In this document: positions 6,031 to 18,395 of the stretch, piece after piece
How positions within the stretch are numbered: the stretch's first letter is position 1
Layout: every line of letters starts with the position of its first letter
Assembly (NCBI GenBank): GCA_013335175.1
Contig: JAAXWC010000013.1
Location: 1 to 38,565, forward strand
Source of the DNA: Candidatus Roizmanbacteria bacterium
GTDB taxonomy: Bacteria > Patescibacteriota > Microgenomatia > UBA1406 > GWC2-37-13
DNA length: 38,565 bases
Direction: 5' to 3'
Position numbers and translations under genes: made by a program
Notes under the pieces: model-generated
What the model was told of the DNA's origin: nothing
Database searches by the model: none
The model's input: the letters and a program-made list of their open reading frames with translations, nothing else

Positions 6031-6057
6031 GTCATCCTCGCGTACGCGAGGATCCAA
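6031..6057 (+). repeat. Left inverted palindrome of the GIY-YIG cassette
   Basis: Reads GTC, then ATCCTCGCG-TA-CGCGAGGAT, then CCAA; the self-complementary core is 20 bp. It is the inverted partner of 6381-6407, with a single difference at the centre. It also lies 71 bp after the metK stop and might act as a transcriptional stop hairpin, although no T-tract follows. Confidence 0.85.
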
Positions 6058-6065
6058 TGTAGCAA

Positions 6066-6359
6066 TTATTTTGTGATTTCCTCATATAAGTCACGCCATT
6101 GAGGATTTGCCTCGTTAATTAATTTTAATTTCCATAGGCGGTTCCAGTGTTTTAACTGTTTTTCTCGAGCTATTGCTTGACTGATATCAGTAAACATTTC
6201 GAAATACACCAGATTGTGTAGAGCATATTGCTGGGTGAACCCTTTAACTACATTATTTTTATGCTCCCAAATACGCTTTATCAGATTTGAGGTTACCCCA
6301 ATATATACAGTGCCGTTTATTGTATTGGAAACGATGTAAATATATGCAGGTTTTAGCAT
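6066..6359 (-). CDS. Single-domain GIY-YIG nuclease (YhbQ/UPF0213-like)
   Basis: A 97-residue protein consisting of one GIY-YIG domain. The first motif is Y6-I-Y8 in a YIYIV strand, the second Y19-I-G in VYIGVT. The catalytic Arg is R29 (LIKRIWEH), H33 follows, and the metal-binding Glu is E66 in REKQLKHW; all expected catalytic positions are kept. Such proteins nick or cleave DNA and are found as homing or repair-like nucleases. Stand-alone bacterial versions have little assigned function. Position between inverted palindromes suggests it acts on these repeats, as a transposase or nickase would. That role is inference. The ATG at 6359 is the natural start; no Shine-Dalgarno is visible. Confidence 0.9.
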   Translation of the reverse strand: MLKPAYIYIVSNTINGTVYIGVTSNLIKRIWEHKNNVVKGFTQQYALHNLVYFEMFTDISQAIAREKQLKHWNRLWKLKLINEANPQWRDLYEEITK

Positions 6360-6380
6360 AATATCAAGGTAAATTATTCG

Positions 6381-6407
6381 TTGGATCCTCGCGTTCGCGA
6401 GGATGAC
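6381..6407 (-). repeat. Right inverted palindrome of the GIY-YIG cassette
   Basis: Reads TTGG, then ATCCTCGCG-TT-CGCGAGGAT, then GAC: the reverse complement of the left end apart from one central base. The bases just inside it (6365-6388, AAGGTAAATTATTCGTTGG) reappear with a few differences in the gene-less 69-bp elements at 13951 and 14071. Confidence 0.85.
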
Positions 6408-6609: not shown

Positions 6610-6777
6610 CGTTTTTCTGTTTAATGCAATAATCGGGTTAGGAAGTTCTGACACTTCCTTTTAAGATGTGTTGATGTATCCATTGTTACTAAAAGCAACA
6701 GAAGGATAACTATTTCTATACCGCCGTGCCTAGGCTATGGCGGTCATTTTTTTCTTAACTAAGAAAAAAATAAAAAG
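6610..6777 (-). other. 3' trailer of the 16S precursor with processing arm and two hairpins
   Basis: Going 3' from the mature end on the minus strand: a hairpin with arms 6739-6744 and 6720-6725 (GGCGGT/ACCGCC on the plus strand), a hairpin with arms 6641-6646 and 6653-6658 (GGAAGT/ACTTCC), then the processing arm 6617-6643. Bases 6628-6643 are perfectly complementary to 8315-8330 (16 bp), and 6617-6623 pairs with 8335-8341. The 6720-6744 hairpin is followed by T7 on the plus strand, so it could also stop plus-strand transcription. Confidence 0.7.
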
Positions 6778-8280
<1,503 letters not shown>

Positions 8281-8370
8281 ATTGTCAGGAAAGACCCCTG
8301 TCGGATGACAGGGCTCCTAACCCGATTATTAAACTAAACAGGCTGAAAATCGATATGTCAAAGAACAAGA
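8281..8370 (-). other. 5' leader of the 16S precursor with RNase III-type processing arm
   Basis: Between the promoter and mature 16S the leader holds the processing arm 8315-8341, complementary to the trailer arm at 6617-6643 (16 uninterrupted base pairs plus 7 more after a small internal loop). A leader hairpin has arms CCCTGT (8296-8301) and ACAGGG (8308-8313). Such flanking stems are the substrate of RNase III in pre-16S processing. Confidence 0.8.
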
Positions 8371-10356: not shown

Positions 10357-10583
10357 ACGTCATTCCGGCTCTCCCGTCATCCCCGCACCTACCAATCGGG
10401 CGGACACACGGGTCCGCCCCTACATGTCATTCCGGCTTGTCCGGAATCGTTGTTTTTTGTCATTGTCTTGAACAGACCCATTGGATTCTCCTGTTCAGGA
10501 GGATGACGCCCCTTTTTCACCCCACACCATCGACTCCTGACAAGCGGGAGTGACGGTGCTATCCCCCGTTCGCAGGAATGACG
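10357..10583. repeat. Palindromic repeat cluster between the ABC exporter and mreB-like genes
   Basis: This 239-bp gap has no credible gene. It contains several copies of the GTCAT...ATGAC palindrome family: GTCATTCCGG at 10363, a hairpin GGGCGGAC/GTCCGCCC around 10398-10419, GTCATTCCGGCTTGTCCGGAAT near 10426, a 72-bp unit at 10459-10530 shared with 18295-18366, and ACTCCTG...CGGGAGTGACGG near 10532-10556. Copies are degenerate and tightly packed, as if repeats had inserted into repeats. Their place between convergent genes means insertion there is tolerated. Confidence 0.75.
10459..10530 (+). repeat. 72-bp dispersed repeat, copy 1
   Basis: Shared with 18295-18366, differing at 5 of 72 positions. 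It starts GTCATTG, contains the hairpin CTCCTG-TT-CAGGAG followed by GATGACG, and continues with CCCCTTTTTCACCCCAC, a tail not found in the other palindromic copies. Copies 1 and 2 thus form a distinct subfamily. Confidence 0.85.
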
Positions 10584-13873: not shown

Positions 13874-13950
13874 TATTACTCCGGCTTACGAAAGTACTAT
13901 TTCCCGTCATCCCCCGACCCTCTCCCGTCACATCCCCCGATCTCTCTCCC

Positions 13951-14019
13951 GTCATCCCCGCGAAGGCGGGGATCCAAGGTGTAATTATTCATTGGATCCT
14001 CGAGCGGGTCGAGGATGAC
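13951..14019. repeat. 69-bp paired inverted palindrome, copy 1 (REPIN-like)
   Basis: The left half starts GTCATCCCCGCG and closes GGGGATCCAA; the right half starts TTGGATCCTCGAG and ends GAGGATGAC. The spacer AAGGTGTAATTATTCATTGG matches the inner right end of the GIY-YIG cassette (6365-6384) with few changes. It looks like that cassette with the gene removed. Confidence 0.8.
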
Positions 14020-14070
14020 GGTGCTTCTTCCATCCATGGATCCCCGCATTCGCGAGGATGACACCACGTC

Positions 14071-14139
14071 GTCATTCCCTCGTTCGAGGGAATCCAAAGG
14101 ATAATTATTCATTGGATCCTCGAGCAGGTCGAGGATGAC
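14071..14139. repeat. 69-bp paired inverted palindrome, copy 2 (REPIN-like)
   Basis: The same layout and length as copy 1. The left half has a different stem (ATTCCCTCG/CGAGGGAAT) that is still fully self-complementary, and the right half differs from copy 1 at one base (GCAGGTC for GCGGGTC). Paired changes within arms suggest the hairpin is what is conserved. Confidence 0.8.
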
Positions 14140-14226
14140 GGTGCTTCTTCCATCCATGGATCCCCGCATTCGCGAGGATGACGGTGCTTTGTCATTGCCG
14201 CTTTTCGAGAGTGAAAGGTAAGGTAA

Positions 14227-18172: not shown

Positions 18173-18395
18173 CCTTTGCGGGACAGGTAGGGGCAGGGCT
18201 TGTCCCTGCCCGCATCAAGGGCGACCGCAAGAGGCCCCTCCCACAACGATTCCCGACGCGTCACATTCGTTCCTTGCGGGAATGACAATGCAACGTCATT
18301 GCCTTGAACAGACCCTTTGGATCCTCCTGTCCAGGAGGATGACGCCCCTTTTTCACCCCACGCCATAGATCCCGCCGTTTGCAAAAGGCGGGAAT
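18131..18395. repeat. Palindromic repeat cluster between convergent glycan genes
   Basis: The cluster begins inside the 3' end of the YfhO-like gene. It includes CGTCATCGCCTCCGGCGAG, a CCCGCC/GGCGG hairpin, GGGCAGGG-CTTGT-CCCTGCCC around 18191-18211, TTCCCG...GCGGGAATGAC, the 72-bp unit 18295-18366 and a final CCCGCC...GGCGGGAATGACG (about 18371-18399). The last hairpin may also help end transcripts of the convergent genes. No gene is seen in 18173-18406. Confidence 0.75.
18295..18366 (+). repeat. 72-bp dispersed repeat, copy 2
   Basis: The second copy of the unit at 10459-10530, in the same orientation. The hairpin loop reads TC instead of TT while the CTCCTG/CAGGAG arms are unchanged. Confidence 0.85.

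Follow-up and report, generated by a model that had tools for sequence, protein, structure and literature searches.

The closest described relatives of the repeats treated here are the CGTC REPs (Di Nocera, De Gregorio and Rocco 2013, PMC3733652). They possess an unpaired terminal tag on one side (CGTC, or else TGTC or CCTC), an 8-9 bp stem starting from A-T and T-A, a loop of 4-5 nt and a CCA tail, occur mostly as head-to-head dimers, and include the neisserial dRS3 and the RPE-4/RPE-6 of Rickettsia (PMC3733652). They are among the commonest short bacterial repeats (in alphaproteobacteria, as dRS3 in Neisseria, and in Rickettsia), and a mover has been reported absent since 2013, when they were stated to "apparently lack a dedicated transposase" (PMC3733652). 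TnpA-REP, the enzyme of another REP system, depends on two parts of its REP, the palindrome and the GTAG tag (PMC8266576). Here we describe, from a window of 38,565 nucleotides (the whole stretch of DNA that was analysed) in a genome of 1.45 Mb in 46 contigs, a candidate nuclease-driven hairpin system. We consider it probable that two 69-bp elements of the window are the non-autonomous dimers of this system and that they arose from a cassette by loss of its gene.

The preliminary description of the window had reported two 69-bp paired palindromes with an A/T-rich spacer. A check of the sequence bears this out: the two elements, at 13951-14019 and 14071-14139, are exactly 69 bp long and lie exactly where reported, and their patterns are absent in reversed controls. 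Each is built of a 26-nt left unit, a 16-nt spacer and an inverted 27-nt right unit, and both are head-to-head dimers of the tagged hairpin GTCAT-stem-ATCCA. Element 1 consists of the left unit GTCATCCCCGCGAAGGCGGGGATCCA on the plus strand (13951-13976), the spacer AGGTGTAATTATTCAT (13977-13992) and the right unit, which reads GTCATCCTCGACCCGCTCGAGGATCCA on the minus strand (13993-14019). Its left unit is of a common type, found at no fewer than 12 distinct places in the own-genome stretches examined, which cover 100 of the 125 unit places. Element 2 has the left unit GTCATTCCCTCGTTCGAGGGAATCCA on the plus strand (14071-14096) and its right unit on the minus strand (14113-14139), and the right units of both elements are of the form with a 5-nt loop. 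The pair is flanked by two convergent genes.

Each element sits inside a 120-bp tandem unit, the first at 13950-14069 and the second at 14070-14189, and each tandem unit holds a third hairpin that had previously gone unseen, at 14037-14062 (GTCATCCTCGCGAATGCGGGGATCCA) and 14157-14182, both on the minus strand. The two tandem units are 87% identical and differ chiefly in the left unit: identity is 24/34 over this unit plus the first bases of the spacer, and 77/78 over the next 78 bases. This distribution indicates that the left unit was exchanged as a block. We had also considered stepwise compensation between the two elements and reject it in view of this block difference. Just upstream, at 13897-13950, there are short CCCGTCATCCCC repeats split by pyrimidine-rich stretches, which look like arrayed half units (tag plus one arm); the same is seen at two places on another contig of the genome (G000:C2, L164 and L165).

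In the whole genome the unit pattern is found at 125 places and its reversed control at none; matches to the exact dimer pattern number 18 forward and 15 reverse, against none for its control. Dimers occur in several lengths. About a dozen near-identical copies of an 80-bp dimer are present on many contigs, several of them with unrelated flanks; six, however, have longer flanks in common and may have spread inside larger repeats, so not all copies are independent insertions. Among the matches listed, which comprise 78 distinct own-genome units, the base immediately before the GTC tag is C in 79% and T in 17%, so that C or T precedes the tag in 96% of them, as it does in 93% of cassette ends. 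The window itself holds two further solo units of the same hairpin class, both on the minus strand, at 10482-10507 and 18318-18343. Each lies within one copy of a 75-bp repeat (10459-10533 and 18295-18369, 92% identical), in which the one hairpin unit is joined to a conserved tail, CGCCCCTTTTTCACCCCAC. A 27-nt inverted repeat (6617-6643 and 8315-8341, 89% complementary, 1.7 kb apart) is unrelated to the hairpins.

The same hairpins bound a gene. A complete cassette of 377 bp, running from tag to tag (GTCAT...ATGAC), occupies 6031-6407 on the minus strand and encodes a GIY-YIG nuclease of 97 aa (6066-6359, minus strand; Pfam PF01541, E=4.3e-15). At the 3' end of the gene lies an outward hairpin unit, GTCATCCTCGCGTACGCGAGGATCCA (6031-6056, plus strand), and at the 5' end another, GTCATCCTCGCGAACGCGAGGATCCA (6382-6407, minus strand). 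Between the latter and the ATG lies the 5' inner end of the cassette, ACGAATAATTTACCTTGATATT (6360-6381, minus strand), from which the spacer of the 69-bp elements would stem under the deletion model. Read in gene orientation, the cassette therefore starts with a unit followed by ACGAATAATTTACCTTGATATT and the ATG, and closes with TAA, TTGCTACAT and a unit. The residues Y8, Y19, G21, R29, E66 and N85 are invariant in 37 members, and the GIY-YIG catalytic set of two Tyr, Arg, Glu and Asn is present; this invariance suggests that the enzyme has been kept active. An AlphaFold2 model of the protein has a mean pLDDT of 94.8 (the rows of the structure prediction exclude five from plasmid records), and the folds nearest to the model are UPF0213 BH0048 (1zg2) and Slx1, at 18-24% identity.

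There are eleven GIY-YIG matches in the genome, four of which make up one subfamily of 96-97 aa, namely the window cassette (L046) and L047, L048 and L049. All four genes are bounded by outward hairpins, with some damage: in L047 and L048 the second arm of the 5' hairpin is broken by an insert of about 45 bp common to both copies, and the 3' hairpin of L049 is degenerate. The window cassette carries the ATCCA hairpin class and the other three carry another class (GTCATTCCGGCTTGCCCGGAATCGT), so that two nuclease lineages in one genome correspond to two hairpin classes. Being inside the window's own genome, these two classes are the cleanest control for separating host from nuclease lineage. The remaining GIY-YIG ORFs of the genome were considered as equal partners and rejected: 0/7 have outward units on both sides, and several are at tRNA genes. 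The latter belong to a second subfamily located in or at tRNA genes (L042, G000:C32:98303; L043, G000:C32:7075; L045 and L050, G000:C31:3436-3982), which is also present in relatives (L157, L161). At these ORFs part of the tRNA is duplicated on the opposite side, as if by homing that restores the 3' part of the tRNA. Elsewhere in the genome, a solitary left end, GTCATCCTCGCGAACGCGGGGATCCAATGAATAATTTAC, lies between cysS and a ligase-like gene (L006, G000:C45:71900); it comprises the hairpin and the 5' inner end of the cassette, without the gene or the right end.

Beyond this genome, we scanned species genomes with the four subfamily proteins and obtained 80 loci from many phyla, taking as control the remaining ORFs of these loci that encode 90 aa or more (834 in all). 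Outward units are present on both sides within 100 bp at 33 of the 80 nuclease loci and at 5 of the 834 control ORFs (p=4e-33), and on at least one side at 61/80 and 64/834, respectively. Within 50 bp of the gene, outward-strand units reach a density of 9.0-9.5 per kb, compared with 0-0.2 per kb at distances over 500 bp; the median gap is 17 bp from unit to start codon and 10 bp from stop codon to unit. The tagged hairpin is absent from both sides in 17 of 113 nuclease loci. For plasmids, the search query was a composed family-like protein, not taken from a record, and the matches were judged on their own DNA. One nuclease gene, in Neisseria gonorrhoeae (L218, NZ_CP119140.1, a record filed as a plasmid yet of chromosome length), is embedded in an array of units of the dRS3 type, which is the CGTC repeat of Neisseria. 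Moreover, three family members (L145, L130 and L226) are found with other widespread palindromes, of the GTCATTGCGAGG...GGCAATC and GTCATTCTGAG...GAAGAATC types, and the association may accordingly reach repeat classes beyond the four CGTC families.

Nuclease and repeats also occur together at the level of whole genomes. Among 57 relatives, genomes with the subfamily have a median of 35 units and those without it a median of 1 (p=3e-8, kinship ignored). Among 145 genomes drawn from across the phylum, again with kinship ignored, the medians are 25 in the 46 with the nuclease and 0 in the 99 without; when the own genome is excluded, p is 8.5e-17, and five or more units are found in 37/45 and 13/99, respectively, likewise without regard to kinship. 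Nine of the 99 phylum genomes without a detected nuclease nevertheless have at least 10 units, including one with 63, and few units are present in some genomes with the nuclease, so that the dependence of the repeats on the nuclease is strong but not absolute.

We then examined whether the stem is conserved as a structure. Units adjacent to the nuclease were selected on their ends alone, which left the stem pairs unselected. Of the 26-mers so picked, 65/65 have at least five of six unselected stem pairs, where 0.6 would be expected. In 34 distinct units 98.2% of stem cells are paired and 6/8 pairs have changes in both partners; their covariation score of 0.466 compares with 0.140 in shuffled data (reached in 0/500). 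The compensatory stem changes proposed as a check are thus found across genomes, where they support selection for the hairpin rather than for the sequence. The preliminary description had drawn the same conclusion from the differing but self-complementary left stems of the two window elements; that part fails, because a block swap accounts for the difference between these left units, and the pair does not itself show such selection. The hairpin class is moreover specific. Left and right arms are equal in 11/23 cassettes against 5.0 by permutation. When the classes are mapped onto a tree of 108 nuclease proteins, loop class needs 7 changes against 18.4 +/- 1.5 when shuffled (0/300), and tail class 12 against 19.3 (0/300). 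Hairpin class follows the nuclease tree, on a tree of few columns and many open forks in which host lineage is only partly separated from nuclease lineage.

Copies of the cassette show where the element ends. L047 and L048 are identical at 401/412 positions, exactly from GTCAT to ATGAC, and their flanks are unrelated (4/20 and 6/20); because identity stops at the tags, the tags are the ends of the mobile unit. By eye, no target-site duplication was seen at L047, L048, L049 or the 80-bp dimers. In Azospirillum lipoferum 4B the nuclease lies between two dimers and is inserted between sufB and sufC, and this cassette is absent from A. ramasamyi, whose flanks are 97.5% identical, and from three other Azospirillum records. 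In Sphingobium plasmids a cassette is next to fnrL in seven and absent in four; in two of these four, one hairpin with a tag at each end (CGTCACCCCGGGTCAAGCCCGGGGTGACG or a variant) lies exactly at the site and could be either a target or what a loss left behind. All loci examined together yielded three such doubly tagged hairpins, including L227 at 1046 (Sphingobium TomTYG64) and L229. A comparison in Sinorhizobium has the gene in both genomes with differing numbers of flanking dimers, and Rhizobium CIAT894 and Novosphingobium pNL2, compared for an empty site, gave no usable match across the site.

As for the origin of the 69-bp elements, the spacer had been said to correspond to the inner right end of the cassette, and this is correct: AATTATTCATTGGATCC agrees with AATTATTCGTTGGATCC at that end of 6031-6407 in 16/17 nt, the last 7 being hairpin tail. 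In the gene orientation of the cassette, the two spacers read AATGAATAATTACACCTT and AATGAATAATTATCCTTT, and that of element 1 matches the 5' inner end on the minus strand. Among the matches listed, the inner 22 nt of 7 of 76 other distinct inner ends match the 5' inner end of the cassette at a score of at least 8, compared with about 0.1 for shuffles and 1 each for inner ends of the other cassette class. Joining the cassette at two TTG microhomologies predicts a dimer of 67 bp, identical to the two elements at 57/69 (83%) and 53/69 (77%) positions, and the match continues through the spacer to the microhomology junction. The spacers of other dimers are unrelated, those of the 80-bp and 81-bp dimers scoring 14/30 and 13/30. 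The spacer match and the predicted dimer support derivation by deletion from the cassette, on sequence comparison, but do not prove it. The earlier claim that the elements are deletion derivatives is upheld in this likeness; the direction from cassette to dimer is one that we infer, and the gain of a gene by a dimer is the alternative. The two-sided architecture of cassettes across phyla suggests an old cassette and local dimers.

We propose that the autonomous form would be a GIY-YIG nuclease gene between two hairpins, with the outward GTC tags as its exact ends, and that the 69-bp elements would be its non-autonomous counterparts, head-to-head dimers of CGTC-type REP hairpins. By analogy with TnpA-REP, for which tag and palindrome are both needed, the nuclease may read its cognate hairpin through the stem-loop and the unpaired tag, in single-stranded or extruded DNA. 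It would cut at the tag, beside a pyrimidine and usually a C, and host repair or replication would copy the tag-to-tag segment to a new site, full cassettes in cis and gene-less dimers in trans. A cassette like that at 6031-6407 most likely lost its gene internally, plausibly between the two TTG microhomologies, giving a 69-bp dimer that may then have been altered by REP reshuffling and local tandem duplication. Where gene-less dimers and cassettes occur in clusters, recombination alone could have been the route of spread.

Other explanations deserve weighing. The GIY-YIG gene might be a homing-like parasite that inserts into existing CGTC dimers multiplied by other means, in which case the 69-bp elements would be empty sites. 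Insertion sequences that target REPs are indeed known (ISPpu9, PMC8450116), gene-less dimers are far more numerous than cassettes, and the two cassette-less Sphingobium plasmids with a doubly tagged hairpin at the site fit an unoccupied target as well as a loss. Such a parasite, however, should be missing from many repeat-rich genomes, whereas genomes without the nuclease are mostly without the repeats; it also does not account for a hairpin class that tracks the nuclease tree, with two classes and two nucleases in one genome, and spacers resembling the upstream region of the gene are confined to one subset of dimers. We regard this explanation as unlikely. We likewise doubt that the 69-bp elements are a chance juxtaposition or reshuffling of clustered REP units, with a spacer likeness due to AT-rich convergence or to a shared promoter-like sequence. 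The block-swapped left units, the third unit in what is a REP cluster, the shortness of the match outside the hairpin tail and the unrelated spacers of the 80-bp and 81-bp dimers would all suit it. Against it stand the seven matches at a score of at least 8, compared with 0.1 in composition-preserving shuffles and 1 for the other cassette class, and the run of the match through the spacer up to the junction.

It is still less probable, and in our view very unlikely, that the repeats are not mobile DNA and act for the host as RNA-level elements (terminators or mRNA stabilisers) or as protein-binding sites. According to Di Nocera 2013 (PMC3733652), most CGTC REPs are located downstream of genes and may be part of transcripts, and the window pair does lie between two convergent genes, but the nuclease association, the tag-to-tag copies with unrelated flanks and the presence or absence at orthologous sites would be left unexplained; such a role and mobility could also coexist. 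A RAYT/IS200-like Y1 (HUH) transposase as the mover, for which the genome offers five PF01797 matches, was considered and rejected as hardly credible: a GTCAT unit lies within 1.4 kb of 0/5 of these matches, the tag is not GTAG, and tyrosine transposases were found unflanked by CGTC units by Di Nocera 2013 (PMC3733652). The nuclease-driven system set out above is thus the reading that we prefer.

Compared with known systems, the units described here share these DNA features with CGTC REPs: an unpaired GTC tag at one end, usually after C, an 8-9 bp stem from A-T and T-A, a 4-5 nt loop and a CCA tail, and a mainly head-to-head dimeric arrangement, which both window elements have. Azospirillum lipoferum, Sinorhizobium meliloti and Neisseria, organisms of the 2013 study (PMC3733652), carry the nuclease here. 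That study reports no transposase and does not mention GIY-YIG, whereas here the units flank a GIY-YIG nuclease; the want of a dedicated mobility gene was a conclusion of PMC3733652 and not a defining feature of the DNA, and the nuclease-flanking units contradict it. The DNA repeats are already known, and the nuclease partner is the new part. In open-access full texts, preprints excluded, we found no literature joining GIY-YIG with CGTC REPs, dRS3, RPE or RAYT-type repeats, and nucleases of this kind go unmentioned in a MITE review of 2024. More tentatively, the system may be transposon-like and of a new type, with hairpin-ended elements spread in many bacterial phyla by a single-domain GIY-YIG nuclease, cognate pairs of nuclease and hairpin, and gene-less dimers as non-autonomous forms; the enzyme so far lacking for CGTC REPs, dRS3 and the rickettsial RPE-4/RPE-6 would then be this nuclease. 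A family that flanks itself with the repeats brings the question of the mover within reach of direct experiment, for which a protein of 97 aa and a hairpin of 26 nt would serve.

The nuclease shares its fold and catalytic residues with GIY-YIG homing endonucleases, and selfish mobility by cutting DNA is plausible for it as for them. It differs in that there is no intron or intein and no conserved target gene, the cassettes being intergenic in varied contexts, and in having cognate hairpins at both ends and high-copy gene-less derivatives. Slx1 and UPF0213 (YhbQ/YazA-like) provide the closest solved folds to the predicted model; unlike Slx1, the nuclease here lacks a RING domain and an Slx4 partner, at 18-24% identity. 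Slx1 cuts branched DNA, and hairpin or cruciform ends would provide such a substrate. Like the MITE of an insertion sequence, the 69-bp elements share their outward hairpin ends with an autonomous form, the cassette at 6031-6407. The nearest parallel in organisation is that of REPINs and RAYT / TnpA-REP (REPtrons), which likewise comprise high-copy head-to-head pairs of tagged hairpins, multiplied as pairs, and a nuclease gene, in a single or a few copies, that lies between hairpins of the same kind. There, however, the tag is GTAG and the flanked enzyme a Y1 HUH transposase, whereas here the tag is CGTC and the enzyme a 97-aa GIY-YIG nuclease, to which covalent tyrosine strand transfer would not be available. 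If the proposal is true, GIY-YIG mobility with hairpin ends would be an independent solution beside the HUH-based RAYT/REPIN.
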